From a virus, in IMG/VR virus record IMGVR_UViG_3300035698_005835, positions 1 to 36,536 of that record: 36,536 nucleotides of DNA; one strand, written 5' to 3'. The first letter of the stretch is position 1; each line of letters starts with the position of its first letter. The position numbers were made by a program, and so were the translations under genes. Shown here piece after piece: positions 646 to 30,273 of the stretch. Under the pieces are notes generated by a model. It was given only the letters and a program-made list of their open reading frames with translations. It made no database searches and was not told the DNA's origin.

Positions 646-659
646 GGAGATCGATCTCC
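646..659. promoter_or_regulatory. Dispersed palindrome, copy 1
   Basis: GGAGATCGATCTCC is a 14-bp perfect palindrome. The outer base pair of the 16-bp core is lost here (T at 645 against C at 660). It lies 20 bases upstream of the ATG at 679, with the Shine-Dalgarno of that gene in between. ATG immediately follows the right arm at 661. Confidence 0.8.
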
Positions 660-678
660 CATGAAGGAGGGAACCAAA

Positions 679-1245
679 ATGGAATCAATCAAGGAAACAC
701 CCACCATATTTGACGCAATCTCGGGGGGCATCGAAGCATCGGAAGCGAGGGGTCAGTCGCTGTTCGTGGAGAGTTGCCTGATGCCAACGGAGCTTATGGA
801 TCCTGTGGCCGACTTCATTACGCTCGGATTCGAACTCGGTGCGGTTATCGAATCGGACCCACTGTTCCAACAAGCAACGCTTCCACCTGGTTGGAGCAAA
901 CGTTCGACCGGACACTCGATGTGGTCTGAAATCGTGGATGAGAACGGGTGCGCCCGCGTGGCCGTGTTTTACAAAGCGGCGTTCTACGACCGTAGCTCAC
1001 ATGCGAACTTGATTCGACGATACCGGATGGACATCGTCAGTGGTGACGGCAAACGCAACGACAGGTGGGTCGTGCGTGACGGCAAGTGGGTGGCAGGTGA
1101 TGATAAAGTCGCGACGGTTGTGTTCGACCCGTCGGAATTCTCACCAAGTGGACTCGCTCAACGTGATGGCTACAAGGAGTGCAACGAGTGGCTTCGTGTG
1201 CACTCCAGCGGCACCGACATCAACATGCTGTGGTCGGCTCCGTAG
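679..1245 (+). CDS. Hypothetical phage protein (188 aa)
   Basis: This is a soluble protein with the segment LPPGWSKRSTGHSMWSEIVD followed by a V-A-V-F-Y-K-A-A-F-Y-D-R block. The pattern resembles an uncharacterised small protein I have seen in many tailed phages; its function is unknown. I chose ATG 679 because AAGGAGGG lies 8 nt upstream. An in-frame ATG at 661 directly abuts the palindrome and would add six residues. The gene opens the cassette that leads to the terminase genes. No signal peptide or membrane segment is visible. Confidence 0.75.
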   Translation: MESIKETPTIFDAISGGIEASEARGQSLFVESCLMPTELMDPVADFITLGFELGAVIESDPLFQQATLPPGWSKRSTGHSMWSEIVDENGCARVAVFYKAAFYDRSSHANLIRRYRMDIVSGDGKRNDRWVVRDGKWVAGDDKVATVVFDPSEFSPSGLAQRDGYKECNEWLRVHSSGTDINMLWSAP

Positions 1246-1319
1246 CGGGCCCACCAAGCGACCCCGTGACCAACCGTCTTCAAACACCTTGTGTACCCAT
1301 AACAGACCGTGGCATCGTA

Positions 1320-1373
1320 ATGAAATGGTTCGACCTACTTCGGATCTTTGCGAAACGAGTCGGGGAAAATTGA
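1320..1373 (+). CDS. Possible 17-aa leader peptide
   Basis: A short ORF encoding MKWFDLLRIFAKRVGEN ends with a TGA that overlaps the ATG of the next gene (TGATG). The amphipathic sequence and the stop/start overlap fit a translationally coupled leader peptide. It is too short to be sure, and no clear Shine-Dalgarno is present. The flanking bases 1246-1319 hold nothing else I can recognise. Confidence 0.2.
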   Translation: MKWFDLLRIFAKRVGEN

Positions 1374-1789
1374 TGTCCGAAATCAAGCCTGAGAAGACCC
1401 ACAAGCGCATCGTTTACAAAATCATCGACGATGCGCCAACCGATTTGAAGATGAAAGAGTTTGACACGTTGGTTAGATCCATCCGCCAGCGAGCCAAGTA
1501 CGTTGCGCAGGTCATGCGGAAGAAGCGGAAGAAGCAAGTGCGCAAGGTCCAGCGTCTCACGCTGTGTCACCATTGCGGCGCCGTCATCCCGTGCCCCGAC
1601 AACCTCTCGGTTGCATCGAAATCATTGTACTGTGGCGCCGGGTGCCGCAAGCGAGCCGAGCGGAAGCGTTCTCGCTTCCGAGCTGCAAAGCAAATGCACT
1701 TGTTGGCGCCCGTACCAAACACGAGAATGTGTTCGTTCTACGTCGTGATCGATTGCATCAACATTGCTGGGGCCATAGGCAGAGCATGA
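1373..1789 (+). CDS. Small basic zinc-ribbon protein (138 aa)
   Basis: The N-terminal half is helical and very basic (a KKRKKQVRKVQR stretch). It is followed by a likely zinc site, C65-x2-C68 and C87-x3-C91 (CHHCG ... YCGAGCRKR). The tail carries a short hydrophobic end. A nucleic-acid-binding role is likely from charge and metal site, but no named family is recognised. The ATG at 1373 is taken as start because it overlaps the upstream stop; the frame stays open further upstream but that region is covered by the preceding gene. It overlaps the terS start (ATGA). Confidence 0.7.
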   Translation: MSEIKPEKTHKRIVYKIIDDAPTDLKMKEFDTLVRSIRQRAKYVAQVMRKKRKKQVRKVQRLTLCHHCGAVIPCPDNLSVASKSLYCGAGCRKRAERKRSRFRAAKQMHLLAPVPNTRMCSFYVVIDCINIAGAIGRA

Positions 1790-2532
1790 AGAAGAAACGA
1801 GAACGTGTGGCGAGGCCTCCGTTTCGTCGTCGCGATCCCGTCGTTGTGGATCCAGAGACGATTGATGCAAACACCGATGACGATGCAGTCTTGGCCGAGC
1901 TTGAAGCAGAAGCTGATAAAGCCTACGGCTCATTTGCGAACCGTGACATCCGTGGCACCATCATCGCGGCACTTGCTGCGGGTTCCTCAGTCGCCAACGC
2001 TGCCAGATACGCGGGCGTCTCACCGTCTGCGTTTCGTGAGTGGTATGCCATTGGGAAGAATCTTGTTGAGGGAAAACGATCCACGAAAGAGTACCGCAAG
2101 TTTGCGGCCGACGTGGACAAGGCGAGGGCTAAGCTCAACGTGCTCGCGGGTGCAACGCTTGTGGCTGCCATGCAAGATCGTCTTTTGGTAAAGGTTGGTG
2201 AGAAGCGTACAATCAAGGGTGACACCATCACGGTCGAGGCTGTGATGCGAGAGCGGATTTCCCCTGTTGCGCTCAGCGCCGCACAGAGCGCGCTCGTAGC
2301 AACGGACCCGAAGAAGTGGGGAACCGGGAAGCAACGTATTGAACTCACTGGTGCCGAGGGTGCACCCATTGAAGTCATGGCTGTTGACGAACTTGGGAGC
2401 ATCAACAGCAAGGTGAGGTCTCTGCTTGGGGGCATCGCGCTTGCGGCCATGAAAGCTAACGCGGGTAGGCTTCCAGTCCCGGTTGACGTGGAGATGCTCG
2501 ACAGCGCGCCTGTCGATGAGGACACAGAATGA
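1786..2532 (+). CDS. terS: Terminase small subunit-like protein (248 aa)
   Basis: This is a likely DNA-recognition subunit of the packaging motor. The N-terminus is basic. Residues about 50-75 (IIAALAAGSSVANAARYAGV and onward to SAFREWY) read as the helix-turn-helix typical of phage small terminases, followed by a helical oligomerisation region. The C-terminal half ends in an acidic tail (SAPVDEDTE). It overlaps the preceding gene by ATGA and the following nuclease-like gene by ATGA, and terL comes next but one. The assignment rests on the HTH and on position; an HTH-bearing regulator is the main alternative. Confidence 0.7.
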   Translation: MKKKRERVARPPFRRRDPVVVDPETIDANTDDDAVLAELEAEADKAYGSFANRDIRGTIIAALAAGSSVANAARYAGVSPSAFREWYAIGKNLVEGKRSTKEYRKFAADVDKARAKLNVLAGATLVAAMQDRLLVKVGEKRTIKGDTITVEAVMRERISPVALSAAQSALVATDPKKWGTGKQRIELTGAEGAPIEVMAVDELGSINSKVRSLLGGIALAAMKANAGRLPVPVDVEMLDSAPVDEDTE

Positions 2533-3191
2533 GTGCTCGCAATCGGGACTACGAGAAGGAGACCGAACTTGCCCGTGCCGTGGTTGTGTGGCTGCGCGCG
2601 AACGGGTGGGAGGTGTGGCAAGAGGTCGATGGGTTCTTCGACATCCTTGCCGTGTGTGCAGGCGTGCTTTGGAGCATCGAGACGAAGCTTGCGTTCAGCT
2701 CGCCTGTACTCGTGCAGGCGTGGCGACGGCGTGGAAGCGCACACAGGATCTCGGTCGCCACGTTACCTGGGCCATCACATAGGAGCACGCGGCTGTATCA
2801 TGCCCGCTGTGCTCGTGAGCTAGGCATAGGCGTTGTGAGTGTGGACAGGTACGGGGTGCGCGAACGAACCGTTGGTAGATTGCACAGGGCACCAGGTGCG
2901 ACGAAGTTGCTCAAGCGGCTCGAAATGATTCCTCGCGATTACGTTGAAGCTGGTACGAACGGCGGTGGTTACTGGACCCCGTTCAAGGGGTTCGTCGAGC
3001 GGCTTGAAGCCTACGTGGGCGCGCACAGCGGGTGCGCCGTGAAGGCCGTGGTTCGAGACGTCCCTCATCACTATGCGACCGAGGCAAGTGCTCGCAACCG
3101 TGTGGGCTTGCTTGCGAAGCAGGGTGTGTTTGAGAACGTGCGCGCCGAGTACGTTGGTCGTGCGTTGTGTCTGTACCCGGTGACGAAATGA
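2529..3191 (+). CDS. PD-(D/E)XK nuclease-like protein (220 aa)
   Basis: The N-terminal 70 residues carry the restriction-endonuclease-fold signature. An early helix is followed by E32, then F-F-D38-I-L-A-V, a short turn, and the strand W-S-I-E51-T-K53, giving the D...ExK catalytic set. A basic region follows (QAWRRRGSAHRISVA), typical of this class in phages. The C-terminal half looks like a winged-helix domain (residues about 160-220: ATEASARNRVGLLAKQGVFE). The protein lies between terS and terL with stop/start overlaps on both sides, so a role in DNA end processing or packaging is plausible. This is inference; no biochemical family is certain. Confidence 0.6.
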   Translation: MSARNRDYEKETELARAVVVWLRANGWEVWQEVDGFFDILAVCAGVLWSIETKLAFSSPVLVQAWRRRGSAHRISVATLPGPSHRSTRLYHARCARELGIGVVSVDRYGVRERTVGRLHRAPGATKLLKRLEMIPRDYVEAGTNGGGYWTPFKGFVERLEAYVGAHSGCAVKAVVRDVPHHYATEASARNRVGLLAKQGVFENVRAEYVGRALCLYPVTK

Positions 3192-4795
3192 GGGCCCCGA
3201 AGTTTGTGGATCCAAACACGGGAGATCGATCTCCCGTGTTGCCAACGTGGCCGCTTGCAGCTTGTCATGGTGTGCTGGCCCCCCACGATTCCGAAGCGTA
3301 CGCGAGCTCCATCTTTGCCAATGTTGCCCATGTGCTCACGGCATTTCCAATGGAGGAACGCCGTGCCCTGTTTACGTGGGCATCTACGCTGTACTCGTAC
3401 CAGGTCGATCTCATTTTCGACCCGTGGGAAAAGTCTGTCCTGAACAAGAGCCGCAAGATCGGCGCCTCGTATGCGTATGCGGGCGCCGCTGTCTTGTGGG
3501 CCATGTTGGGTGAAGAGACGATCGTAATCAGCCAAACCGAGGACACCGCCAAGCGGTTCATTCGGGACGCGAAAGAACTGCACAGCCGTGCGCTGTGTGA
3601 GTTCGGAAGCGAGTGGGCCGTGTGCGGCGGCAACCAGAATGAGATCGTGTTCCCGAACACAGGTGGTCGCATCATTGCACGGGCGAGTGACAGTGCCGGT
3701 CGTGGCTACTCGGGAAACTTGATCCTGGATGAGTTCGCCTACCACAAGGACCCCGAGAAAGTTTGGGATGGTGCCGCTGCCGTTGCTGCCATGGGCAGGC
3801 GCATGCGTGTCTTGAGTACGCCCAATGGCGTGGGTAACTTGTTTCACACCATGTGCACCAATGAGCGGGCGCATGCGGGCTATCGCGTGATGCAAATCAG
3901 CCTCGCGTTCTCGCGTGCGGCTGGGGCCATCCCACGCATACCGCCTGCCATAGGACCGTCGACGGACGAAGATTGTTGGATGTTGGCGCATGGTGATACG
4001 CGCCTCTATGACCAGCTATTCGGTTGTGCGTTCCTTGACGCCAACATGCAGTACTTGCCGCATGCTCTCATCACGGCTGCAAGTACTGCGACGCTCGACG
4101 ACTTCACGAAGCTTGTACGGCTGCAAACGTTCGGCGGCTGTGACGTGGCGCGGTACCACGACTTGACCGCAATCGCGACCGTGATTGTTGACGAATCGAT
4201 CGGGTGTGTTGGTGCCGACGGCGTCTCTCGCAAGGGCCCTGTGTTGTGGGTTCCTCCCATTGTTACGTGCCGCAATACCGACTGGGTTTCACAACGCAAG
4301 CTCATCCAGGATGGGTTCCGTGGGCGTGGTTGGACGAGGCTGTGCGTGGACAAGGGCGGCATGGGTAACATGTTCACGGAGCAGTTGCAGCGCCGCCATG
4401 GGAAGTCGAAGGTTGAGGGTGTCGACTTTGCTGGCCGAGCGAAGGAAGACATGGTGACGCGGCTCTACGAGTGGTTCAACGAGGGCCGCATCAGACTCTT
4501 GCGAGAGGATGCCGAGCTGCGCCGTGACCTGTACGCGCTACGCCGGATCATTACGACGGCTGGAAACATTCGCTACGATGCTGCAAGGACCAAGGATGGG
4601 CACGCAGACAGGGCGTGGGCGCTCGCACTTGCTTGTCTTGCTGCTGCACGTTCTCACATCGCGCGTCATGATGATGGACAGAGCGCCGGTGATGTCATGG
4701 CGGCGTTGCAGAAGCTCGATGACGAGATTTACGGTGAGCGAGATCGGCACGGTGAGTACGCGTTCGAAGATGAGGATGATGGTTATGGGTACTGA
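3188..4795 (+). CDS. terL: Terminase large subunit, Mu gp28-like (535 aa)
   Basis: This is the ATPase/nuclease that drives DNA into the prohead. The Walker A-like loop is NKSRKIGASYA (residues 86-96) and Walker B is L-I-L-D181-E182-F. The C-terminal RNase H-like nuclease begins at FGGCDVARYHDLTAIA (about residue 318) and has a late acidic cluster, DGHADRAWALALAC (about residue 472). Length fits Mu-type large terminases. The ATG at 3188 overlaps the upstream stop (ATGA). An in-frame GTG at 3167 and another at 3236, within the palindrome, are alternatives. If 3188 is used, the palindrome is translated as NTGDRSPV at residues 10-17. The C-terminus is acidic (DEDDGYGY). Confidence 0.93.
   Translation: MRAPKFVDPNTGDRSPVLPTWPLAACHGVLAPHDSEAYASSIFANVAHVLTAFPMEERRALFTWASTLYSYQVDLIFDPWEKSVLNKSRKIGASYAYAGAAVLWAMLGEETIVISQTEDTAKRFIRDAKELHSRALCEFGSEWAVCGGNQNEIVFPNTGGRIIARASDSAGRGYSGNLILDEFAYHKDPEKVWDGAAAVAAMGRRMRVLSTPNGVGNLFHTMCTNERAHAGYRVMQISLAFSRAAGAIPRIPPAIGPSTDEDCWMLAHGDTRLYDQLFGCAFLDANMQYLPHALITAASTATLDDFTKLVRLQTFGGCDVARYHDLTAIATVIVDESIGCVGADGVSRKGPVLWVPPIVTCRNTDWVSQRKLIQDGFRGRGWTRLCVDKGGMGNMFTEQLQRRHGKSKVEGVDFAGRAKEDMVTRLYEWFNEGRIRLLREDAELRRDLYALRRIITTAGNIRYDAARTKDGHADRAWALALACLAAARSHIARHDDGQSAGDVMAALQKLDDEIYGERDRHGEYAFEDEDDGYGY
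3215..3240. promoter_or_regulatory. Dispersed palindrome, copy 2 (26 bp)
   Basis: This is a perfect 26-bp palindrome made of core GGGAGATCGATCTCCC with matching AACAC/GTGTT arms. It lies inside the 5' end of terL, in frame. A GTG at 3236 at its right edge is an alternative terL start. Together with the copy at 24053 it has the longest perfect arms in the window. Confidence 0.9.
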
Positions 4796-4827
4796 CCCCT
4801 CAGCGTTCACGTCATGATTGGTGCAAC

Positions 4828-4980
4828 ATGTTGATCAATTGGAATCGCATCGAACTGATCTTCGACAAGTTTCGTCGAACGGGCATGCTTGGACCTTGTG
4901 AGATTTGTGCTCTCAAAATGGCACGACTCTTGGGCGACAAGGACTATGAAACTCGATTGCGGAAGCTCGGACTTCCGTGA
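4828..4980 (+). CDS. Small hypothetical protein (50 aa)
   Basis: The protein reads MLINWNRIELIFDKFRRTGM, then a C-x2-C pair (PCEIC) and a basic helical C-terminus ending RKLGLP. It has one possible metal half-site. The stop overlaps the next gene's GTG (GTGA), so the two are probably translationally coupled. GTCATGAT lies upstream (4811-4818), 9 nt before the ATG. No family is recognised. Confidence 0.55.
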   Translation: MLINWNRIELIFDKFRRTGMLGPCEICALKMARLLGDKDYETRLRKLGLP

Positions 4981-5213
4981 GGTGTTGCGTGTGCGGTGGT
5001 GTTGCGCATCCTTCAACGGGCGCGCAGTACACAGTGGATTCATGTGCGTGTCGCGAGTGCGTATGGGAACTTTGGCGATGGGTTCTTGGACGACAAGGGC
5101 GCAAACCGCGCCGTGGTGGTCCGAGCTTTTTTGACCACGTGAATAGGGAGGCAACCGATGTTTCAACAACGACATGGAATCAAGTGGGTCGAACCGGGCA
5201 AGCATCATCGTAG
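4977..5213 (+). CDS. Zinc-ribbon microprotein (78 aa)
   Basis: Two Cys pairs, C3-x2-C6 and C25-x2-C28 (the latter within SCACRECVWELWRW), form a likely treble-clef or HNH-type zinc knuckle. A basic stretch (GRQGRKPRRGG) follows. The catalytic HNH residues are not evident, so binding rather than cleavage is more likely. The GTG start overlaps the upstream stop. The C-terminal 19 codons overlap the next ORF in another frame. Confidence 0.55.
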   Translation: MRCCVCGGVAHPSTGAQYTVDSCACRECVWELWRWVLGRQGRKPRRGGPSFFDHVNREATDVSTTTWNQVGRTGQASS

Positions 5214-5409
5214 TCTCACCATGATGGCTCGCGCGACGCGTGGCAATTGTTCGATGATGATGCAGGACGGGCGCAGATCCGACGTAGCAAGATGCTGCGC
5301 CCGAGAAAGCGGGTGTTGCATCTTTCATCTGCCACCCTCGCGTTGCTTTCGTTTCTCAAAGAACTTCGAGGTGATATTGCCCCCTTCATATACGAATCGA
5401 GCAGGGTGA
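5158..5409 (+). CDS. Uncertain ORF (83 aa), possible frameshifted gene
   Basis: The ATG has a strong Shine-Dalgarno (AGGGAGG, 6 nt away) and the stop lies 3 nt before the next ATG, which fits operon spacing. The second half is unusually rich in Cys, Met and Arg. In the frame of the preceding gene, 5214-5405 reads more like a normal protein (DAWQLFDDDAGRAQIRRSK, then LALLSFLKELRGDIAPFIY). A frameshift near 5214 could join the good start to the better-looking body. No family is recognised. Confidence 0.35.
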   Translation: MFQQRHGIKWVEPGKHHRSLTMMARATRGNCSMMMQDGRRSDVARCCARESGCCIFHLPPSRCFRFSKNFEVILPPSYTNRAG

Positions 5410-5412
5410 CCG

Positions 5413-6443: not shown

Positions 6444-6450
6444 TGTAGGC
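6437..6450 (+). promoter_or_regulatory. Leaderless-type promoter element before the 27-aa gene
   Basis: GTCATGAT is followed by exactly 6 nt and then the ATG at 6451. The geometry fits a -10 hexamer (CATGAT) with transcription starting at the A of ATG. The same 8-mer and 6-nt gap occur before 8431 and 11311. No conserved -35 is seen. The element also contains the endolysin stop codon. Confidence 0.4.
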
Positions 6451-6534
6451 ATGGGAACTCCTTGCTACATTTGCGGGAAACTCTTGCCCGTTGATGAAAG
6501 CGCAAACTTCGATCTCCTCAAACTTGACGAATGA
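6451..6534 (+). CDS. Cys-pair microprotein (27 aa)
   Basis: This tiny ORF begins MGTPCYICGKLLPVDE and contains a single C-x2-C-G knuckle, followed by an acidic tail (NFDLLKLDE). There is no Shine-Dalgarno; the leaderless-type element above would explain expression. It is too short to have a recognisable fold alone and could bind zinc as a dimer. It fits the abundance of C-x2-C small proteins in this island. Confidence 0.4.
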   Translation: MGTPCYICGKLLPVDESANFDLLKLDE

Positions 6535-6539
6535 AACAC

Positions 6540-6555
6540 GGGAGATCGATCTCCC
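6540..6555. promoter_or_regulatory. Dispersed palindrome, copy 3
   Basis: The 16-bp core GGGAGATCGATCTCCC is perfect. The left flank is CAC but the right flank is ATG, so the extended palindrome is broken by one base that creates an ATG at 6556. It lies 18 nt upstream of the Shine-Dalgarno-supported ATG at 6574. Confidence 0.85.
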
Positions 6556-6573
6556 ATGAAAGGGTTGACACCA

Positions 6574-6945
6574 ATGGGGAGCAAATCAAAAGCAACGTGC
6601 AAATCCAATGCTCCGTGCTGTGCGCGTACTCTGAAAGTGGCGTTGACGAAGGCCAACGCCAAGGACAAGCAAGCCGCTGCGGAGTTGCTGAAACTGCGCA
6701 ATTCTTTGACGCGTGTGGAACGCAAACTAGAATCGCTCAAGTATCGTCATATGGATGCGCGTCGCAGGTTGGAAGAGAGTTGGTTTGAAAAGGTGAGGGT
6801 TGTCGAACACGAAGAGAACAAGCTCAAGGATCTCGTCGACGAAGCCATCGACAATTTGGCCGATGCAAGTGCACACGTCGAGTACGTCTACGGCGAAATG
6901 GCGGGAGCCGAAGCCGTGTTGAAAGAGATTGCAAGGAAGGGTTGA
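6574..6945 (+). CDS. Alpha-helical coiled-coil protein (123 aa)
   Basis: The N-terminus has a basic Cys-containing stretch (KATCKSNAPCCARTLK). Long charged helices with heptad spacing follow (LLKLRNSLTRVERKLESLKY, and later LKDLVDEAIDNLADASAHVE). The function is unknown. ATG 6574 is preferred because AAGGG lies 9 nt upstream and the same context (GGGTTGACACC) precedes the next gene's start. ATG 6556, adjoining the palindrome, is in frame and would add six residues. Confidence 0.65.
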   Translation: MGSKSKATCKSNAPCCARTLKVALTKANAKDKQAAAELLKLRNSLTRVERKLESLKYRHMDARRRLEESWFEKVRVVEHEENKLKDLVDEAIDNLADASAHVEYVYGEMAGAEAVLKEIARKG

Positions 6946-6950
6946 CACCG

Positions 6951-7232
6951 ATGGGAACCGATGAGAGTCTACGCGTTCATGGTCGGGCGCAAGCACGACC
7001 CAACGAGCCGACGCACAAGCCCCCCCGCGCGTCGGCTCGTTGCTTTCCAAATCTGTGGTTGTTGAAGGCACTCGACAACCGTGTGCACATCAGCGAGCCA
7101 GGTGCAGCGCGGGCCGAGTGCGGCATGTTGGTGAACGACGACTGGCGCAAGCTCCCGAAGTCGACGTTGTTGGAAGCAATCACGTGCCCGGTGTGCTTGC
7201 GTGTGCTCGTGGAGATGTGCCGTGAAAACTAA
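6951..7232 (+). CDS. Phage zinc-ribbon protein (93 aa)
   Basis: The C-terminal two thirds match a common phage zinc-ribbon layout: N-R-V-H-I-S-E-P-G, then A-E-C-G-M-L, a short loop with DDWRKLP, and T-C-P-V-C-L-R-V-L. His/Cys-x-Cys-x2-Cys residues would hold one zinc. Such proteins are found in many tailed phages with no assigned function. ATG 6951 is chosen by the repeated context GGGTTGACACC upstream, but a start further downstream is possible. The 3' end overlaps the next gene by 11 nt. Confidence 0.6.
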   Translation: MGTDESLRVHGRAQARPNEPTHKPPRASARCFPNLWLLKALDNRVHISEPGAARAECGMLVNDDWRKLPKSTLLEAITCPVCLRVLVEMCREN

Positions 7233-7657: not shown

Positions 7658-7677
7658 ACGGGAGATCGATCTCCCGT
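7658..7677. promoter_or_regulatory. Dispersed palindrome, copy 4 (20 bp)
   Basis: Core GGGAGATCGATCTCCC with one extra AC/GT pair on each side gives a perfect 20-bp palindrome in the gap between 7646 and the next gene. A GTG at its right edge opens only a 29-codon frame, so it is probably not a gene start. Confidence 0.88.
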
Positions 7678-8084: not shown

Positions 8085-8087
8085 GGC

Positions 8088-8398: not shown

Positions 8399-8414
8399 GG
8401 GAGAACGATCTCCC
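8399..8414. promoter_or_regulatory. Dispersed palindrome, copy 5 (imperfect)
   Basis: GGGAGAACGATCTCCC differs from the core by one central base (T>A). It lies directly upstream of the GTCATGAT element, so it would cover the -35 region of that putative promoter. This is the clearest link between the palindrome and transcription in the window. Confidence 0.75.
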
Positions 8415-9906: not shown

Positions 9907-10226
9907 TGGGTGCCGTGGGAGCCATGCATGTGTGGGGCGAGGGCACGCTTTCATTCGACATCTACACGGCGTTACTTGTCGATTCCCATGTGCGTGGAGT
10001 AGTCGTGCGCTTGTACGTGTCGGCTGAGTTGTTCGAGCAGTTGGTGAAAGAGTTGAGGGTGCAGGTTGCAGCGTGCACTGCGGGCATGCCAACTATGTTC
10101 TTTGACGGAGGAACCCCGCTTGTGTGCTGCCCCTTCTTCAAGCCGAACCAGTGGATCGAAGCGCTGTCTGATGGGACCCAACGGTTGCACGGGTTCAAAC
10201 AACGGGAGGACAGTGATGGAAGTTGA
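9906..10226 (+). CDS. Hypothetical protein (106 aa)
   Basis: MGAVGAMHVWGEGTLSFDIY is followed by a segment with alternating beta strands and one amphipathic helix (ELFEQLVKELRVQVA), then a Cys-containing region (PLVCCPFFKPNQW). No family is recognised. The ATG overlaps the upstream stop; the end overlaps the next gene by 11 nt. Confidence 0.5.
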   Translation: MGAVGAMHVWGEGTLSFDIYTALLVDSHVRGVVVRLYVSAELFEQLVKELRVQVAACTAGMPTMFFDGGTPLVCCPFFKPNQWIEALSDGTQRLHGFKQREDSDGS

Positions 10227-10416
10227 GAAAATTGGTAGTTGGTCAATCATGAAACGTGGGAACAACACGCATTACGCCATGCTGCACATGGGGTACAGAA
10301 GCGTGCTGGTTTCATTGGATAGAGACTGCGTATCGATGGAGCGCACGGACAAGAGTGGAGGGTGCGTGTGCCCCCTGTCCATAATCCTTCGGCTACGGGA
10401 GATCGATCTCCCATGA
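10216..10416 (+). CDS. Small hypothetical protein ending in the palindrome (66 aa)
   Basis: MEVEKIGSWSIMKRGNNTHY starts with a Shine-Dalgarno GGGAGGA 7 nt upstream. The last codons, for REIDLP and the stop, are supplied by palindrome copy 6, and the TGA overlaps the next ATG. No family is recognised. Confidence 0.55.
   Translation: MEVEKIGSWSIMKRGNNTHYAMLHMGYRSVLVSLDRDCVSMERTDKSGGCVCPLSIILRLREIDLP
10397..10412. promoter_or_regulatory. Dispersed palindrome, copy 6
   Basis: The perfect 16-bp core GGGAGATCGATCTCCC is placed exactly at a gene junction. It encodes the C-terminus of the upstream gene, and the ATG of the downstream gene follows at once (10413). As in copies 1, 3 and 9, the base after CCC is A rather than G, creating ATG. 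Confidence 0.88.
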
Positions 10417-12598: not shown

Positions 12599-13930
12599 GT
12601 GAACGCATCAACAACAACTGTCCCCATCGTGCAATCGGCCTTCGTCGTGAACCCGACGCCGCAGCCGTTCATGCAATCGGATGTGGATGTAACTGTTGCC
12701 ACGGTGCGGCACATCTTGGACAACCACGAGCACGGTGACTTTTACGCAAGCGCGCAGCTCGCCGATCGTCTCGATCGCAACACGCGCATCAGGGGTGCCC
12801 TCGATAGCCGCGTGCGTGCCTTGCTCGGTTCGGAGTCGAAGGTTGTTGCCCCGGAGCATGCGGTAGGTGACCCGCTTACTGAGTCCATCACGCGCAAGAT
12901 TGGTGCTTGGTGGCACACGGTCGTGAACGAGTCTGTTCTTGAGGGCATGCTTCGAAGTCACACCACGATGGGCTTCTCGATTGCAGAGCAGACTTGGGAA
13001 GTTCGGCGTATTGGTATCAAGAGCACATGGATGCCGGTGTTGCATCCATGGCACTGTGGCTGGGCCGGCTACAACCAGGCGAGCGATGGGTTCTACGTGA
13101 GCGATGCGAAGGGTAAGCACGTTCCTGTTGTTCCCGGCAACGGCCGCTGGCTCATGTTGAACGCGACCGCGGTTTATCCTTGGATGCGTGGTGTGATCCG
13201 TTGTGTTGGGCTCGGGGATGTGTTGCGTGGGCAAGCGGTTTGTAATTGGAGCCGTTGGGCTGAGAAGCACGGCATCCCGATCACGAAGGTGAGCGTGCCT
13301 CGGAACGAGGTCAACGCGTATGCGACGAAGCGGTTCATGCGTGACCTCCGTCTGATGGGCAGGCAGGGTCATATCAAGCTTCCCACGGACGAAGAGGGGA
13401 AGAAGCAATTCGACGTCGAGTTCGCCGAGATGAAGGCGAAGGGGTGGGACGGGTTTCAGGGGCTCATTGGGCTCACGGACACGGACGTTTCGATCGCGAT
13501 ACTTGGACAGAATCTCACGAGCGAAGTGAGTGGTGGTTCGTACGCCGCCGCCAAGGTTCACGATGAAGTGCGTCTTGATCTTGTGAAGGCAGACGCCGAG
13601 ATGCTTTCGACGTGCGTGCGTGAGTGCGTGTTCAAGCCGTGGGTCAAGTACAACTACGGGGCCCACCTTGTTGACCTGGCCCCGTGGCCGCGTTGGCAGG
13701 TTGAGCCGCCCGCGAATCTTGAGATTGCGTCGAAGGTTCTGGCCTCCGTGATGGTCGCTATTGAAGCGGCAGCTCGCACGATGGCTGCGGGGTTGCCTGT
13801 ACCTGTTGATGTGCGTGCGCTGTTGGAAGAGTACGAGATTCCGACGACTGCTGTGGATGCCATCGCGCCCGTGGTGAAGCAACTTGCTACCGCCACCGTG
13901 CCGGTTGCCGAGGGGGTGGAAGGTGGCTGA
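12590..13930 (+). CDS. Portal protein, Mu gp29-like (DUF935) (446 aa)
   Basis: This forms the dodecameric head-vertex channel for DNA packaging and tail attachment. Diagnostic family stretches are T-R-I-R-G-A-L-D-S-R-V-R-A-L-L-G near residues 64-80, W-S-R-W-A-E-K-H-G-I-P mid-protein, and I-L-G-Q-N-L-T-S followed by G-G-S-Y-A-A-A-K-V-H-D-E-V. K-A-D-A-E-M-L-S-T and W-V-K-Y-N-Y-G then follow, as in Mu gp29 relatives. GTG 12590 is the best start; GTG 12599 is an alternative. No good Shine-Dalgarno is visible, and the hairpin noted above overlaps the start. Confidence 0.92.
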   Translation: MPVVNASTTTVPIVQSAFVVNPTPQPFMQSDVDVTVATVRHILDNHEHGDFYASAQLADRLDRNTRIRGALDSRVRALLGSESKVVAPEHAVGDPLTESITRKIGAWWHTVVNESVLEGMLRSHTTMGFSIAEQTWEVRRIGIKSTWMPVLHPWHCGWAGYNQASDGFYVSDAKGKHVPVVPGNGRWLMLNATAVYPWMRGVIRCVGLGDVLRGQAVCNWSRWAEKHGIPITKVSVPRNEVNAYATKRFMRDLRLMGRQGHIKLPTDEEGKKQFDVEFAEMKAKGWDGFQGLIGLTDTDVSIAILGQNLTSEVSGGSYAAAKVHDEVRLDLVKADAEMLSTCVRECVFKPWVKYNYGAHLVDLAPWPRWQVEPPANLEIASKVLASVMVAIEAAARTMAAGLPVPVDVRALLEEYEIPTTAVDAIAPVVKQLATATVPVAEGVEGG

Positions 13931-14813
13931 GTTCGTTTTGAGTTTTGCACCTGCGCCACCTGAGGAGTCCGCTGTCCTTGTGGTACCCGTTGCGAGTGAC
14001 CCCAACACGGGAGATCGATCTCCCGTGGTTGAGCGAGCCGCAAATGGTGGTGAACGTGCAGTTGCGATGCAGGCTCGAATCACCAGGTCGCATGAATGGT
14101 TGCACGCCTACTGCGAGGACTTGAAAGAAGAAGCGCGCAAGGTGTTTGAAGACGGTGGTGCTGCGCTTGGTTCGACTTCACTCGACTCGTTGAAGACGAG
14201 CATGCGCGGTGCACTCACAGCTGTGGTGCAAGATGCCCGCACAGTGGTTCATGGGCGTGCTCCCACAGACATCGTGGAAGAGCTTGCGGCTGGGTTCCCT
14301 GCTGTGGAGGGACTCGAACTCGATGGGGGCAATGCTCCCATCGAAGCGACCGTGCGTGAGTGCGTTGAGAATGCCGTTGACATCGCGCTTGAACTCACAC
14401 GCGATGCGATTGAAGACGGTGAGTCAGACGTGCGTGCGTTCCTCACAACGCAGGGGTGGCGTGGGGTACGCGTTGCGGTGACGAAAGCGGCCGCGCAGTA
14501 TGACCACACCCGCATGGCTGCATACAACGATCTTGATGCAAACCATGCTGGCGTATTTGGGTTTGAGATTCTCAAGGACGAAGACGAGTTGCCCGGACAG
14601 GGTGAGCGCGCGAAGGGTGACCAAGAGGTGACCGTTGTGCTTGCACTCCGTTGGGGTGCCATCATCGACAAGGTCACGTGCTTGCGGTGTCGTCAGCGCG
14701 ATGGGCAGTTTACAATTCTGGCGATCCCTTTCGTGGGGCCACCGCTTCACGACCATTGCCGATGCGTCACGTCCCTGTGGCCGATCACGTGGACGTGGGA
14801 GGATGACGAATGA
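13923..14813 (+). CDS. Head morphogenesis protein, Mu gp30/SPP1 gp7-like (296 aa)
   Basis: This is a minor head protein that usually binds the portal and acts in DNA ejection or assembly. The body is helical. The C-terminal signature is typical of the family: C-L-R-C-R-Q-R-D-G, then P-F-V-G-P-P-L-H-D-H-C-R-C-V. The GTG start overlaps the portal stop by 8 nt. The N-terminal 45 residues form a low-complexity Pro/Val-rich leader that includes NTGDRSPV (residues 28-35), encoded by palindrome copy 7. A GTG at 14025 in frame could start a shorter form without the leader. Confidence 0.88.
   Translation: MAEFVLSFAPAPPEESAVLVVPVASDPNTGDRSPVVERAANGGERAVAMQARITRSHEWLHAYCEDLKEEARKVFEDGGAALGSTSLDSLKTSMRGALTAVVQDARTVVHGRAPTDIVEELAAGFPAVEGLELDGGNAPIEATVRECVENAVDIALELTRDAIEDGESDVRAFLTTQGWRGVRVAVTKAAAQYDHTRMAAYNDLDANHAGVFGFEILKDEDELPGQGERAKGDQEVTVVLALRWGAIIDKVTCLRCRQRDGQFTILAIPFVGPPLHDHCRCVTSLWPITWTWEDDE
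14006..14027. promoter_or_regulatory. Dispersed palindrome, copy 7 (22 bp, in frame)
   Basis: This is a perfect 22-bp palindrome: core GGGAGATCGATCTCCC with CAC/GTG arms. It lies inside the 5' part of the gp30-like gene and is translated as part of NTGDRSPV, the same peptide as in TerL. An in-frame GTG lies at its right edge (14025). Confidence 0.9.
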
Positions 14814-18025: not shown

Positions 18026-18047
18026 GACGGGAGATCGATCTCCCGTC
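18026..18047. promoter_or_regulatory. Dispersed palindrome, copy 8 (22 bp)
   Basis: This is a perfect 22-bp palindrome with GAC/GTC arms around core GGGAGATCGATCTCCC. It lies in the gap between the decoration gene and the major capsid gene, 34 nt upstream of the capsid ATG. Here the right flank is GTC, so no start codon adjoins it, yet the palindrome is intact. Confidence 0.9.
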
Positions 18048-19080: not shown

Positions 19081-19126
19081 AAGTGATGTGAGTTCGCGTT
19101 CATGGTGAGACGGACTCACATCACTT
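19081..19126. repeat. Long inverted repeat after the major capsid gene
   Basis: AAGTGATGTGAG (19081-19092) is the exact reverse complement of CTCACATCACTT (19115-19126), giving a 12-bp stem with a 22-nt loop. It lies in the 131-bp gap after the capsid gene. There is no T-tract, so partial termination, RNase III processing or mRNA stabilisation are the likely roles; none is shown. Confidence 0.6.
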
Positions 19127-21627: not shown

Positions 21628-21643
21628 GAGAGATTGATCTCCC
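21628..21643. promoter_or_regulatory. Dispersed palindrome, copy 9 (degenerate)
   Basis: GAGAGATTGATCTCCC has two changes from the core (G>A in the left arm, C>T at the centre). It lies in the gap before the sheath cassette, 23 nt upstream of the ATG at 21667. ATG adjoins the right arm (21644) but opens only an 8-codon frame. Confidence 0.65.
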
Positions 21644-24052: not shown

Positions 24053-24078
24053 CACACGGGAGATCGATCTCCCGTGTG
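24053..24078. promoter_or_regulatory. Dispersed palindrome, copy 10 (26 bp)
   Basis: This is a perfect 26-bp palindrome, core GGGAGATCGATCTCCC with CACAC/GTGTG arms, in the 80-bp gap after the tail tube gene. The ATG of the next gene is 46 nt downstream with GGAGGG in between. The GTG at its edge opens only 15 codons. Confidence 0.92.
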
Positions 24079-24835: not shown

Positions 24836-24838
24836 ATC

Positions 24839-27139
24839 ATGCCTGCCCCAGTCGTCGTAAAGTTCTCCACTGCTGGTGCGAAAGAAGTCGAAGCTGTCTT
24901 CGCCAAACTGACGAAGAAGATGCAGCAATTCGCCAACGCGCAAGTGAGTGCGGCGACGCGGGCAGCACGTGCTGAAACGAAGGAACGTGAGAAAGGCGGC
25001 AAGGCGAGCGTAGCTGCCAAAAGTAAGCACGCCCGTCAGATGGAGCGCATCAACGACAAGACCGCCACCATGGCGGGGCAGCACGCAAAGCGCATAGTCG
25101 CTGAGGAGGCTAGGGCGGCCAAGGCTGCGACTCGTGTGATTGAGAAGGAAGCCAAGCGTAGGAACGCCATCCGCGCCCGTACCGCCACCATGGCGGGGCA
25201 GCATGCCGTAAGAGCCGCGAAGGCTGAAGCTGCTGCGGCAAAGATGGCGAACGCTGAGATGAGCAAGCTCACTGCGCAGCGCACACGGGGCGCCATGAAC
25301 GTAGTGGGTGGGGTAGGTCGTTCGATGCGTTCTGCCACCGGCATGGTCGGGATGGTAGGTGCAGGTGTCGGCGTTGGTATGGTTGGGGCAGGTGTCAACA
25401 GCGCGTATCAGTTGAACAAGCGTGGTGCACTCCTTTCGATCGCTTCTCAGATGCCTGGTGAGACGCAGCGGGACCCGGGTCAATTGGTAGGCGCGGCCCG
25501 CTCACTTGCGAGTGAGACGGGCATGAGTTCGGAGAACATTTTTTCGGGCATGGAGATGGTGAGCGCGAAGGGTGGAGGGGCGGCTGGTCTGACGAAGTAT
25601 CTCCAGGACATGCGTGAGTTGGGGAAGCTTGCGATTTCGAACGGCATCGAGATGGAGGACATGGGCTCGGTGGTTGCGGCAGCCTACAACACAGGTGTGA
25701 AGCCGGGTGAAGACTTGCTCTCACTTGTGCGTTCTTTGATCGTGCAAGGGCGTGCAGGTTCCATCGAGTTCAAGGACTTTGCAGATGAGCTTGCGAGGCT
25801 CGGTGGCAGCGGTGGCAAGTTTGGAAGTGGGACCAAGATGTTGCAAGACATCGGCGGGCTCACGCAGCTTGCAGCCGTGACATCTGGTGGCAACAAGCAA
25901 GGCGCTCGCACAACGGTTGTCGACATGGTCCGAGAGTTCTCACAAGGTCCCAAGATCGCGATGCTTGGTGAGATGGGCGTGCAGACGCACGACGCAAAGG
26001 GCTTGCGCAACGCGGGCACATTGATGACGGAAACGATCGCTGCAATCGAAGGCGGTATGGCTCCAAAGAAAATCCCTGGACTGTCTGCGAAGCAGCGCAA
26101 GGATATGGGTCCCGAGCAGATCAAGGCTGCACTACTTTCGTCGATCTTTACGGGCAAATCAGGCGACCTAGCGACCACGTTGCAGAAGACGTTCAAGGGT
26201 GGCTTCACGACCAACGCGGGTAAGGCGCTCACGGGCAAGGCTGCCGTTGCTGCAAGGATTGAAGAAGCGTCGCGTCCCTACAACATGACGCAGAAAAACG
26301 CGACTGCTGACTTCGAACAAATCTCGAAGGTGCAAGAGCTTGCGAGGGCACACGAAGACTTCAAAAACAAGATGGCGGAACTACTGCCCGAACTCGCGAA
26401 GTTGATCCCTCAATTGGTGAAGGCTGCCGACGCGTTTGCGAAACTCATCGTGTGGTTGGGGAAGAACCCTCTGCAAGGGTTTGGCGCGTTCATGATGGCA
26501 TCGTTCACACGAGAGTTGACAAACGCAGCGATGGCAAAAACGATTGAGGCTGGGTTTGCAAACATCACCTCGTCTATTGTTGGTGGCAAGGGTAAGGGGG
26601 GCGTGCTCGGTTCGCTCGGTTCGTTGGGTGCGATTTCGATCGTTGCCACGACCGTTGCACTCACCGGGATGATCGTGCTCGACAAGATATTCAACGCGGG
26701 CGAAGACGTGGGGAAGAAAGGTGGGGCCGCGGTGCGCAGTGGTGCTTCAACAGCGCGGTCTGCTGAACGGATGCTCGAAGCCGGTACCGAAGGTCCGGTG
26801 GATCCAGCAGCTCGACAGAAGCTTATCGCGAAGTTGGAATCGGAACGCGCGACCGCTGCGAAAACCTCCAAGGCGTTGACCTCACCAAGTGCTGGTGAGG
26901 TTGCCATACGCACCGCAATAGGTGGAGCACCTGTATTAGCTGTTGAAGCACTCATCCGTGAGACTGCAAAACAACAGGGTGTCTCGAAAGAACAGACCGA
27001 CGCGCTTACCACAAATCACGATCGGTTGATCATAGGTTTGAACAATCTCGCGACCAAGATCGAAGCGGGCGGTGGCGTGCTTGCAGACCCGAATTCAGGC
27101 CCTCGGAAAACACCGGCCGCTAACGCAGGGTTCAAGTAG
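24839..27139 (+). CDS. Tape measure protein (766 aa)
   Basis: This is the longest gene in the window and the ruler of tail length. The N-terminus is Ala/Lys/Arg-rich and helical. A Gly-rich segment follows (MVGMVGAGVGVGMVGAGVNS), then the family-like region F-S-G-M-E-M-V-S-A-K-G and R-S-L-I-V-Q-G-R-A-G. A hydrophobic helix near residue 600 (ISIVATTVALTGMIVLDKIF) may insert in the host membrane during injection. Typical position after the chaperone gene. Residues 71-130 hold a 40-residue duplication (TATMAGQHA twice). Confidence 0.88.
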   Translation: MPAPVVVKFSTAGAKEVEAVFAKLTKKMQQFANAQVSAATRAARAETKEREKGGKASVAAKSKHARQMERINDKTATMAGQHAKRIVAEEARAAKAATRVIEKEAKRRNAIRARTATMAGQHAVRAAKAEAAAAKMANAEMSKLTAQRTRGAMNVVGGVGRSMRSATGMVGMVGAGVGVGMVGAGVNSAYQLNKRGALLSIASQMPGETQRDPGQLVGAARSLASETGMSSENIFSGMEMVSAKGGGAAGLTKYLQDMRELGKLAISNGIEMEDMGSVVAAAYNTGVKPGEDLLSLVRSLIVQGRAGSIEFKDFADELARLGGSGGKFGSGTKMLQDIGGLTQLAAVTSGGNKQGARTTVVDMVREFSQGPKIAMLGEMGVQTHDAKGLRNAGTLMTETIAAIEGGMAPKKIPGLSAKQRKDMGPEQIKAALLSSIFTGKSGDLATTLQKTFKGGFTTNAGKALTGKAAVAARIEEASRPYNMTQKNATADFEQISKVQELARAHEDFKNKMAELLPELAKLIPQLVKAADAFAKLIVWLGKNPLQGFGAFMMASFTRELTNAAMAKTIEAGFANITSSIVGGKGKGGVLGSLGSLGAISIVATTVALTGMIVLDKIFNAGEDVGKKGGAAVRSGASTARSAERMLEAGTEGPVDPAARQKLIAKLESERATAAKTSKALTSPSAGEVAIRTAIGGAPVLAVEALIRETAKQQGVSKEQTDALTTNHDRLIIGLNNLATKIEAGGGVLADPNSGPRKTPAANAGFK
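25061..25203 (+). repeat. 23-bp direct repeat within the tape measure gene
   Basis: The sequence ACCGCCACCATGGCGGGGCA followed by GCA occurs at 25061-25083 and again at 25181-25203, exactly 120 bp apart and in frame. It encodes TATMAGQH twice. This is a 40-codon duplication, which could alter tail length. Confidence 0.85.
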
Positions 27140-27697
27140 ATGGCACAGCTTCAAGATTGGGAAGTGCTCTCACAACTGCTGCCACTTTCATGGCGTGGGA
27201 TCGAAGTGCCATGTGTTGCGATCACGTCGAGTGCGACGAACCGACTCAGTGAGCATGAGCAATACGGCGTGCCCGCTGCTGATGTCGAGAACGGTGGGCG
27301 CAAGAGCGCGGCACACACATTTGCGATTCCGTTTAGGCGACTCCTCTTCAACTACGTCGGGTTGTATCCTCGCATCTTCCGACAGTTCGTGAAGGCGTTG
27401 ATCAACACGAGTGCGGGCAAGCTCCGGCACCCCGAGTTTGGGCTGATGGATTGTCAGGTCGCGTCGTGGAGCTTCACGTGGACGGGCACCAAGCGTGACG
27501 GCTGCGATCTTCAAGTTACGTTCAAGGAAACGAACGAGCTTGGGCTCACACTTGAAAAGGCAGCCGTCTCGGTTGTGGACGCACAACAACTTGCGCTCGA
27601 ACTTCAGATCATGATGCTGAAGCGAAGCCTCCGATCACGTACGAAGACCCAAGTGGTCTCACGTTGTCGGAGCAACTTGCGAAGGTCGCAAGCTTGA
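27140..27697 (+). CDS. Tail protein, Mu gp43-like, N-terminal part (185 aa)
   Basis: The N-terminus reads as the DNA-circularisation/gp43 family: P-L-S-W-R-G-I-E-V-P-C, then H-E-Q-Y-G-V-P and R-L-L-F-N-Y-V-G-L-Y-P. Beyond residue about 155 the sequence becomes Arg/Ser-rich (RSLRSRTKTQVVSRCRSNLR) and unlike a protein core. In the adjacent frame at the same place a smooth continuation is found (see the next entry). The gene therefore looks interrupted by a frameshift near 27605, whether natural, programmed or a sequence error. Confidence 0.7.
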   Translation: MAQLQDWEVLSQLLPLSWRGIEVPCVAITSSATNRLSEHEQYGVPAADVENGGRKSAAHTFAIPFRRLLFNYVGLYPRIFRQFVKALINTSAGKLRHPEFGLMDCQVASWSFTWTGTKRDGCDLQVTFKETNELGLTLEKAAVSVVDAQQLALELQIMMLKRSLRSRTKTQVVSRCRSNLRRSQA

Positions 27698-28050
27698 AGC
27701 TGTTGGCTGAGTTGGAGATCGCGGGTGCGTTGGCAGAAGTGCAACGCGTAGTGGATGGGGTCAACGGGATCCTTGACATAGTTGGCTCGCTCACGGATGC
27801 GGACGCGTCGGCTATGTATGCGGCCGGTGGTGGGATCGTCGACGCAATGAACAAGCTTGAAAGTTCGTTGTCGGTTGGAGGATCGGGCAAGCGCATTGCT
27901 CAAAAAATCAACGACAAGGAACGGACCGTTTCCGAGTCGGCCGTGCACTTTGGAATGGCTACGAGTTCGTTCTACTCGATGAACCCTAAGGCTGCGCGTA
28001 GCGGCACCGTGTTGAAGAACCAAACCGTGCTTGTGTACGAGGCCGCGTGA
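27664..28050 (+). CDS. Gp43-like C-terminal part in another frame (128 aa)
   Basis: The frame is open from 27556 and reads D-A-E-A-K-P-P-I-T-Y-E-D-P-S-G-L-T-L-S-E-Q from 27616, before the only formal start, TTG 27664, which has no Shine-Dalgarno. The body is helical, ending with an element like the gp43 C-terminus (FGMATSSFYSMNPKAARSG, then VLVYEAA). This fits the second half of one gp43-like protein of about 290 residues. If not joined, it would be a separately translated protein. Confidence 0.6.
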   Translation: MSEQLAKVASLKLLAELEIAGALAEVQRVVDGVNGILDIVGSLTDADASAMYAAGGGIVDAMNKLESSLSVGGSGKRIAQKINDKERTVSESAVHFGMATSSFYSMNPKAARSGTVLKNQTVLVYEAA

Positions 28051-29153
28051 TGCGTAATCACGAAGTGCAAGTGGTGTTCAACGGCGTACCTGTCGACGGG
28101 TTCGAAAGCTATGCGATCAACACGGACTTCTTGACGCCATGTTCTGGCTGGACTTTGACGCTCGGTGGTTTGCGCAAGTGGAACAAGTACAGCGGCGTGA
28201 TTGTGAAAGACGCCCGTGTGCAGATCAACCTTGACGGTACCCAAGTGATGCAGGGCTGGGTGGACATTGCGCACAGCCACGGTGATGCTTCCAACTACAA
28301 GGTGGAGATCCAAGGGCGCGACCACTTGAAGCCACTGGTGAAGGCGAACATTCACCCCAACACAGTGATCAAGGATCTGACAGTTGCACAAGCAGTCGAG
28401 AAGATCCTTGTGCAAGTGTATCGGCAAAACGTGCCGACGATTTTCTTCGACAACGACGCGAATCGCAAGGTGTTGACGCGTTCGAAGAAGTCGAGCAAGG
28501 GCAAGAAAGTCACTGCGAAACAGTTGATCGAACAGTTGCAGCCCAAAAGTGGCGAGGGCGCGTGGGAGTTCATCGCGCGACTTCTCCGCCGCAATGGGTT
28601 GTGGATGTGGCCCACCGTGGACGGCAACATTGTGGTGGGCAAGCCCAACTATGAGCAGGCTCCCAGCTACACGTTGCAACGGCCCATCGACGATACCGTT
28701 TCTTACATGAGCAACGTGAGTGTGAAGCGCGACAGCACGAACGTGCCCTCGCATGTGTTCGTGGTCGGCAAGGGTGGGGGCAAGGGAGAAGCTTCAAGCG
28801 TCGTGCAGGGTAAGGCTGTCGACGACACGTGGGCCCTTTGGGCGCCCGCCTACATCAAGCATGACGAAGTGAAGGACGCGAAAGAAGCCGACAACATCGC
28901 GGTGCAGGAACTGGGCAAACAGAAGCAAAATGAGTTCGTGTATGAATGCACGGTCAAGGGTCATCTCGATGAGTTGACTGAAGCATACTATGCGATCGAC
29001 ACGGTTGCGCACGTGCACGATGAGATCGAAAGTTTGGACGCGGACATGTACGTGACCAGTTGTACATGGATGCGCAGTGTGAGCAAGACGACAACGAAAC
29101 TCAAACTCGTGCCGTTGTACTCGCTCGTGTTTGATCCGGAGGACTCACCGTGA
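28050..29153 (+). CDS. Baseplate hub protein, Mu gp44/gpP-like (367 aa)
   Basis: The baseplate hub joins tube and spike. It has the two-domain layout of the late-control-D/gpP family: a beta-rich N-terminus with L-T-L-G-G-L-R-K and V-M-Q-G-W-V-D, then the middle W-E-F-I-A-R-L-L-R-R-N-G-L-W-M-W, a hallmark of hub proteins, and a C-terminal beta domain (Y-V-T-S-C-T-W-M-R-S). ATG 28050 overlaps the previous stop; GTG 28047 is in frame too. The next gene overlaps by GTGA. Confidence 0.85.
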   Translation: MRNHEVQVVFNGVPVDGFESYAINTDFLTPCSGWTLTLGGLRKWNKYSGVIVKDARVQINLDGTQVMQGWVDIAHSHGDASNYKVEIQGRDHLKPLVKANIHPNTVIKDLTVAQAVEKILVQVYRQNVPTIFFDNDANRKVLTRSKKSSKGKKVTAKQLIEQLQPKSGEGAWEFIARLLRRNGLWMWPTVDGNIVVGKPNYEQAPSYTLQRPIDDTVSYMSNVSVKRDSTNVPSHVFVVGKGGGKGEASSVVQGKAVDDTWALWAPAYIKHDEVKDAKEADNIAVQELGKQKQNEFVYECTVKGHLDELTEAYYAIDTVAHVHDEIESLDADMYVTSCTWMRSVSKTTTKLKLVPLYSLVFDPEDSP

Positions 29154-29782
29154 GCAACTACTCAGACTTGTACGATGTTCTGAAGATTTCGCGCAGCGTG
29201 CTCGTGGGCAAGGCGAAGAATGTGGTTGCGCTTGTGATGCGCTCGCCCGAACCGCAACCTGGTGATGAGGGTGCGCCGCCTGAGACAGAAGGCGAAGAAG
29301 TTGAGAACTGGCAGCACTACGGGTTCGTTTCGAAACCTCCGAAAGACGCCGATGGGATCGTGCTTCGGCTTGGTCGATTCGTTGTGTGCATCGCGAGTCG
29401 CATGGTTGACCACGCGAAGATTTACGGGCTGTTGTCCGATGGTGACGTGGGCCTGTATTCATCGGGAGGCCAACTGTTTCGTTTGAACGCAGACGGCTCG
29501 ACTTCGTTTTTGAAAGAGACCAAGGACGGGCAGCACATGGCGATTCAAATCACGGCCGACGATGAGATCAAGATCGTGCATCCGTGTGGAGCCTACATGG
29601 AGATTTCAAAAGACAAGATGGTGTTCAAGCACAACACAGCACCAGTAACGATTTCGTCAGGAGTGATGGTTCAGATTGTTGCACCGAAGTTGATCAACTT
29701 GGTCGGCTCAAATTCATTGAGCGTAGCAGCAGCGAAGCCGATGGCAGCGGTGGGTGCTGTGGCGCCGAACGTTTTCCTTTGA
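29150..29782 (+). CDS. Baseplate spike protein, Mu gp45-like (210 aa)
   Basis: This is the central membrane-piercing spike. An N-terminal OB-like region (GIVLRLGRFVVCIASRMV) precedes beta-helix-like repeats of the shaft (Y-S-S-G-G-Q-L-F-R-L, I-K-I-V-H-P-C-G-A-Y-M-E-I). The C-terminus is hydrophobic and Ala-rich. GGAGG lies 8 nt before the GTG start, which overlaps the hub stop. A metal-binding His-x-His tip is not evident. Confidence 0.8.
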   Translation: MSNYSDLYDVLKISRSVLVGKAKNVVALVMRSPEPQPGDEGAPPETEGEEVENWQHYGFVSKPPKDADGIVLRLGRFVVCIASRMVDHAKIYGLLSDGDVGLYSSGGQLFRLNADGSTSFLKETKDGQHMAIQITADDEIKIVHPCGAYMEISKDKMVFKHNTAPVTISSGVMVQIVAPKLINLVGSNSLSVAAAKPMAAVGAVAPNVFL

Positions 29783-29794
29783 GGATCATGATGA

Positions 29795-30124
29795 ATGACG
29801 CTGTGCAAATTCCCGTTGATTCCACCGATACCTTGGCCAGGTTTGGATCCAAACATTCCGTTCCCAGACCTGCCCGTGATTCCGCCAATGTGGATCCCGG
29901 AGTTGGGAATCTGGATCGTGATTCCGCCGATACCTTGGCCGAGCTTGTCGCCGAATATTCCGATCCCGGATCTGCCAGTGATTCCACCGATGTGGATCCC
30001 GGAGTTGGGGATCTGGATCGTGATTCCACCAATACCATTCCCAAGCATCGACCTGGCGTTACCAATCCCAGACATACCGTTGCCCAGCTTGCCAAAGTGC
30101 CCGCTGGACGGGGGTGCTGGCTAG
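29795..30124 (+). CDS. Proline-rich repeat protein in the baseplate cluster (109 aa)
   Basis: The protein is built of near-identical units rich in Pro, Ile, Leu and Trp (PMWIPELGIWIVIPPIPWPS twice, with variants). GAGG at 29781 gives a Shine-Dalgarno. Changes between units are mostly synonymous in this frame (CCA/CCG, GAC/GAT, AAC/AAT), which supports it over the longer overlapping frame. The role is unknown: spike-adjacent position suggests a tip or needle-associated protein. The 30125-30286 gap holds palindrome copy 11. Confidence 0.65.
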   Translation: MTLCKFPLIPPIPWPGLDPNIPFPDLPVIPPMWIPELGIWIVIPPIPWPSLSPNIPIPDLPVIPPMWIPELGIWIVIPPIPFPSIDLALPIPDIPLPSLPKCPLDGGAG

Positions 30125-30251
30125 GTGGTCCCGGGGCTCCCTCAAGTAAGATTCCACGTGCCACTGACCGAAGATTGATTCTCGGGCCAGTTCTGACGCG
30201 CCACGGGGCAAACCAAACCAGGTCACGTGGGCCAGTTGGCAGCGTTCCAAA

Positions 30252-30273
30252 CACGGGAGATCGATCTCCCGTG
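30252..30273. promoter_or_regulatory. Dispersed palindrome, copy 11 (22 bp)
   Basis: This is a perfect 22-bp palindrome, CAC/GTG arms around GGGAGATCGATCTCCC, in the gap upstream of the baseplate wedge cassette. The Shine-Dalgarno AGAGGAGG of the next gene begins right after it, 13 nt before the GTG at 30287. Upstream bases (CCAAACACGGG) repeat those of copy 2. Confidence 0.9.

Follow-up and report, generated by a model that had tools for sequence, protein, structure and literature searches.

A near-invariant dyad repeat placed mostly between genes in the structural module of an uncultured virus of bacteria

The window, that is, the whole stretch of DNA analysed here, is the 36,536-base IMG/VR virus record IMGVR_UViG_3300035698_005835, which derives from an uncultured virus of bacteria and is probably a fragment of its genome. 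A scan of the window proteins identifies a Mu-like structural module. This comprises genes for the small terminase subunit, TerL, an endolysin, the portal, a gpF-like head morphogenesis protein, a protease-like protein, a gpT-like capsid, a gp36-like protein, the tail sheath and the tape measure, together with baseplate genes. All genes in the coding-potential map lie on the + strand and are separated by short spacing, and no gene for a DNA-binding protein or regulator was recognised among the proteins scanned from this probable fragment.

Several further features accompany the module. At the edge of the record, positions 21-420 hold a CRISPR-like array with six copies of the 36-nt repeat CCAGCAAGGCTAGCTCGACAGCCTACAAGTCGAGAC, the last of them degenerate, and spacers of about 36-38 nt. 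The array is cut by the contig edge, and its partial first spacer is identical to the 3' end of the fourth. The scan of window proteins recognised no cas gene, neither IMG/VR nor a set of 84,980 prokaryote genomes contains the core of this repeat, and the array has no match in phage or plasmid records. An inverted repeat at 19081-19126, with 16-nt arms (94% complementary), a 14-nt loop and no T-run, sits in the gap downstream of the major capsid gene. At 29817-30073, a tandem 102-bp repeat of about 2.2 copies encodes a proline-rich repetitive protein.

Dispersed through the window is a palindromic motif, GGGAGATCGATCTCCC, which the sequence-only reading had reported at eleven sites, all of which were recovered. 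The copies are the following:

645..660, + strand: copy 1, TGGAGATCGATCTCCC then ATG; upstream stop 6 nt before, ATG 679 18 nt after.
3215..3240, + strand: copy 2, 26-bp perfect palindrome with core 3220-3235, then GTG; adjoins the TerL GTG 3236, or would fall within TerL were ATG 3188 (ATGA overlap) the start.
6540..6555, + strand: copy 3, core exact, followed by ATG; the small gene 6451-6534 has its stop about 5 nt before, ATG 6574 18 nt after.
7658..7677, + strand: copy 4, 20-bp perfect palindrome with core 7660-7675, then GTG; in the gap before the gene 7734/7755-8084.
8399..8414, + strand: copy 5, GGGAGAACGATCTCCC then GTG; ATG 8431 16 nt after.
10397..10412, + strand: copy 6, core exact, followed by ATG 10413, where a small membrane protein begins; also encodes REIDLP, the C-terminal end of 10216-10416, the TGA of which overlaps ATG 10413.
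14006..14027, + strand: copy 7, 22-bp perfect palindrome with core 14009-14024, then GTG; probably within the gpF-like head-morphogenesis gene 13923-14813, reading NTGDRSPV.
18026..18047, + strand: copy 8, 22-bp perfect palindrome with core 18029-18044, then GTC; stop 17 nt before, ATG 18082 of the major capsid gene 37 nt after.
21628..21643, + strand: copy 9, GAGAGATTGATCTCCC then ATG; stop 17 nt before, ATG 21667 23 nt after.
24053..24078, + strand: copy 10, 26-bp perfect palindrome with core 24058-24073, then GTG; stop 13 nt before, ATG 24125 (gene preceding the tape measure) 51 nt after.
30252..30273, + strand: copy 11, 22-bp perfect palindrome with core 30255-30270, then GTG; GTG 30287 16 nt after.

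Two of these copies have other repeats in their neighbourhood: the tandem 102-bp repeat lies upstream of copy 11, and the sequence AAGGGTTGACACC(A/G)ATGGG, whose first base context varies, occurs directly after copy 3 (6556-6579) and again at the next gene junction (6937-6957).

The eleven palindromes are one sharply defined, strongly non-random repeat family. At two or fewer changes from GGGAGATCGATCTCCC, 11 copies were found against 0.11 expected from dinucleotide-preserving shuffles (maximum 1 in 100 shuffles), which rules out a chance origin. Eight copies are exact, two carry one mismatch (645 and 8399) and one carries two (21628). A PWM run over the window returns the same 11 copies far above background, with no weaker or intermediate sites and no graded tail. 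Perfect arms of 26, 20, 22, 22, 26 and 22 bp at 3215, 7658, 14006, 18026, 24053 and 30252, respectively, bear out the 20-26 bp at six sites of the sequence-only reading; alignment of the copies extends the conserved unit beyond the palindrome it described, to AC-GGGAGATCGATCTCCC-RTG. In the left flank, A at -2 and C at -1 are each present in 11/11 copies; in the right flank, +1 is a purine (4 A, 7 G), +2 is T throughout and +3 is G in ten copies, the sole exception being 18029, where GTC replaces RTG. Outside this unit the flanks differ from copy to copy.

The earlier suggestion that the copies gather at gene junctions is supported. Nine of the eleven are wholly non-coding, in a window whose gaps make up 4% of the sequence and where a random 16-mer is wholly non-coding in 3% of cases (p 9e-13). 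Two of these nine, 3220 and 21628, depend on the choice of start, since they would fall in the first codons if TerL started at ATG 3188 or the 21667 gene at ATG 21607; the seven unambiguous copies alone give about 1e-8 (same binomial, hand calculation). There are 17 gaps of at least 20 nt, nine of which contain a copy. From the end of the motif to the chosen gene start the distances are 0, 0, 16, 16, 18, 18, 23, 37, 51 and 79 nt. The two other copies (10397 and 14009) overlap coding sequence. Codons 13926-14003, upstream of the latter, score +4.1 bits in the gpF-like frame vs -13 and -15.5 in the others, which probably places this copy about 86 nt into the head-morphogenesis gene.

Although the core itself is symmetric, the family shows an asymmetry, in that the four core substitutions all affect the left half and the +1 departures, also four, all fall on the right, a pattern in keeping with a site that follows the direction of transcription. 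Leave-one-out scores follow the direction of transcription at seven copies, tie at two (3220 and 24058) and favour the reverse at two (18029 clearly, 14009 slightly). This evidence is modest, with n=11 copies, and suggests a site oriented with transcription.

Standard expression signals were not found at the copies. None of the eleven has a sigma-70-type promoter-like match, and no -35 or -10 hexamer is conserved at a fixed distance upstream of them, so a sigma-70 promoter was rejected. The operator for a late regulator proposed beforehand is equally unsupported in a promoter-based form, because shared -10/-35 elements are missing and most copies lie too close to the start to leave room for a promoter. 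The absence of a downstream T-run, also noted earlier, applies on the coding strand to 11/11 copies and led to rejection of intrinsic terminators; the terminator scan flags solely 6540 and 21628, both on the minus strand. A role for Dam-type methylation had been raised as well, and nothing points to it, since the window shows no avoidance of GATC (266 observed vs 279 expected).

As far as the collections searched show, the repeat appears to be lineage-specific, being absent both from genomes and from capsid relatives. The 21-mer has no exact match in 84,980 prokaryote genomes, by which a host repeat was rejected. The exact 16-mer occurs in only seven other virus stretches, single-copy in each, and none of the 118 contexts listed for the 14-mer carries the AC/RTG flanks. 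Searches through TerL, portal and sheath, which may omit the window's own or near-identical records, returned no close relatives in IMG/VR, and the motif is absent from the capsid relatives at 31-41% identity among the matches listed. Among the other loci of at least 9 kb that were analysed, a dyad scan yielded no family with at least four dispersed copies; as a positive control, the scan recovered the known dyad family in Firecracker and Catdawg, both Cluster O phages, which indicates that it works.

A resemblance to dispersed repeats of actinobacteriophages had been noticed from the start and is supported, the best parallel being one that was not named then. The closest known system is that of the 17-bp dyad repeats TGTTCGG-N3-CCGAACA of Cluster O mycobacteriophages (Corndog, Firecracker), which occur in about 34 near-invariant copies, often between genes or near 5' ends, and are absent from the main hosts (PMC4351075). 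They have no assigned function; their authors propose binding of a dimeric protein, think a transcriptional role unlikely and report little evidence for orientation, and they also mention the stoperators of Cluster A as dispersed phage sites (PMC4351075). Both systems consist of many dispersed near-invariant dyads in one phage lineage, here with 11 copies. They differ in the half-sites (GGGAGATC/GATCTCCC without a spacer here vs TGTTCGG/CCGAACA with a 3-bp spacer), in placement (9/11 wholly non-coding vs 4/13 intergenic in the first 50 kb of Firecracker) and in orientation, as AC...RTG here mostly points with transcription.

Two other phage systems share part of this picture. The Start-Associated Sequences of Cluster K mycobacteriophages, GGGATAGGAGCCC, are found in 11-19 copies per genome, mostly in one orientation; they are asymmetric, lie 3-7 bp upstream of the start, where they take the position of the ribosome-binding site, and serve non-structural genes only (PMC3203893). 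The motif has in common with them GGG...CCC ends, a Shine-Dalgarno-like core, a position upstream of starts and one main orientation, whereas it is a perfect dyad of another sequence located 0-79 nt from the start, most genes starting further downstream of it, and many of these genes are structural. Cluster A stoperators, as in L5, are 13-bp asymmetric sequences oriented with transcription, at which the immunity repressor binds and stops transcription. The motif copies are likewise dispersed short sites, with an orientation along transcription that is suggested on modest evidence; their core is a dyad and no repressor was identified in the fragment.

The data fit a sequence-specific site, bound either as DNA or as RNA. 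Tentatively, and with a probability that we place slightly below even, the copies are best explained as putative sites at which a single dimeric DNA-binding protein, probably encoded by the phage, would bind and exert a stoperator-like control at gene junctions. The site family would be ACGGGAGATCGATCTCCCRT(G), recognised in a sequence-specific manner by the dimer, and the sites would act in the orientation of transcription at the junctions of the late (head-tail) gene cluster. The bound dimer would most likely be a roadblock, stopping or attenuating RNA polymerase between genes, as stoperators do. In its favour are the excess of copies, the lack of a graded tail, the placement in non-coding DNA, the core stem free of compensatory changes, the asymmetric departures and the Cluster O parallel. 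The dyad symmetry runs continuously through the centre of the motif, including the four bases that an RNA hairpin would leave unpaired in its loop, and a DNA site would tolerate intact copies in coding DNA, such as those at the end of 10216-10416 and probably inside 13923-14813. Against it, a symmetric dimer does not explain the RTG tail, kept in ten of eleven copies even when it adds nothing to the palindrome; the window proteins scanned include no recognised DNA-binding protein and no promoter signals were found; and the Cluster O authors doubted a transcriptional role for their own dyads.

The RTG tail is where the main rival, an RNA-level element that is unlikely overall, gains most. In a polycistronic late mRNA the motif would fold into a hairpin of 6-11 bp whose loop is UCGA, beside or containing a ribosome-binding site (GGGAG) and adjoining RTG, and a phage RNA-binding repressor, or melting of the hairpin, would coordinate late-gene translation in the manner of T4 RegA or the coat-protein operators of RNA phages. 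RTG follows the hairpin at 10/11 sites, and AC...RTG reads with transcription at most copies. The best argument for this alternative is that RTG is kept where the palindrome is not extended: in the five copies whose left flank lacks a Watson-Crick partner (645, 7660, 8399, 10397 and 21628) the +3 G is retained 5/5, a post hoc observation on small numbers. The triplet opens a frame into a gene at 645, 3220, 6540, 10397 and 14009; the ATG adjoining 10397 is very likely a true start, given the ATGA overlap, and GTG 3236 is a possible start of TerL. Against this, the RTG at 7660, 8399, 21628, 24058 and 30255 either lies in another frame than the gene or leads into a stop, and 18029 has GTC, so that the motif triplet leads into an out-of-frame or early-stopped ORF at these six sites. 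It is therefore not simply a gene's start codon, and a universal gene start was rejected. Copy 14009, probably well inside a gene, also fits an RNA element poorly.

Folding and covariation bear on the same alternative. The hairpin is present in the predicted minimum-energy fold at all eleven sites, with a stem of just 4 bp at 21628. The centre four bases, which would form its loop, are palindromic in 9/11 copies and 42/44 of these bases are kept; the core never varies as pairs, and three outer pairs have changed on both sides. Covariation measures as high were reached by 29 to 170 of 500 shuffles and are not clearly beyond them. The core stem lacks compensatory changes, which indicates that the sequence, and not mere pairing, is conserved. 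The motif has no Rfam match, a covarying RNA structure is not supported, and covariation lends nothing to a structure-only version of the RNA hairpin put forward at the outset. Masking of the left arm shifts Shine-Dalgarno accessibility in differing directions by site, and an anti-Shine-Dalgarno switch by the right arm was rejected, as forcing or blocking the hairpin has no consistent effect on this accessibility. The more specific form, in which a hairpin with its own Shine-Dalgarno adjoining RTG would recur through the late genes as a uniform operator of translation, is quite unlikely. If true, a single RNA-binding protein would tune the levels of head and tail proteins, as a DNA-phage counterpart of the RNA-phage coat-protein operators.

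The position of many copies after stop codons brings to mind the REP elements of enterobacteria, host chromosomal palindromes that follow stops in transcribed gaps and are longer, imperfect, variable and often paired. In this distinctly improbable alternative, post-stop hairpins would protect the upstream mRNA or mark cleavage points, setting differing amounts of late messages from one transcript. Seven copies lie 4-17 nt past the upstream stop (645, 6540, 7660, 8399, 18029, 21628 and 24058), and the motif resembles REP elements as a palindrome after stop codons in transcribed gaps, but it is short, near-invariant and found in one phage. A structural barrier does not need the nearly invariant loop and stem sequence, copies 10397 and 14009 overlap coding sequence, and RNase III would be expected to need a longer stem in its substrate.

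It is very improbable that the motif is a short mobile palindrome, or a linker for recombination, which copying or gene conversion would have carried into junctions that tolerate it, where it would promote module exchange and have little regulatory role. The near-identity of the copies without a graded tail, their gene-boundary position and the lineage-specific motif agree with it, and recombination between Cluster O repeats appears to have caused deletions (PMC4351075); against it, neither a target-site duplication nor a constant outer boundary was seen, and the flanks beyond AC...RTG differ. Most improbable is a role in genome handling, in which a protein for partition, condensation or packaging would occupy parS-like, packaging or origin-related sites. 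A perfect 16-bp dyad dispersed across about 30 kb is compatible with this, but such sites are usually clustered and do not require an intergenic position, and the junction placement points to expression.

The motif represents an independent case of dispersed phage dyads, in a Mu-like structural module for which no close sequenced relative was found, and its placement, between genes of the structural cluster, is stricter than that of the Cluster O repeats. Returning to the favoured explanation of a dimeric DNA-binding protein, if one regulator binds all sites, the late genes of this virus would be under junction-by-junction control through a compact and testable set of sites.
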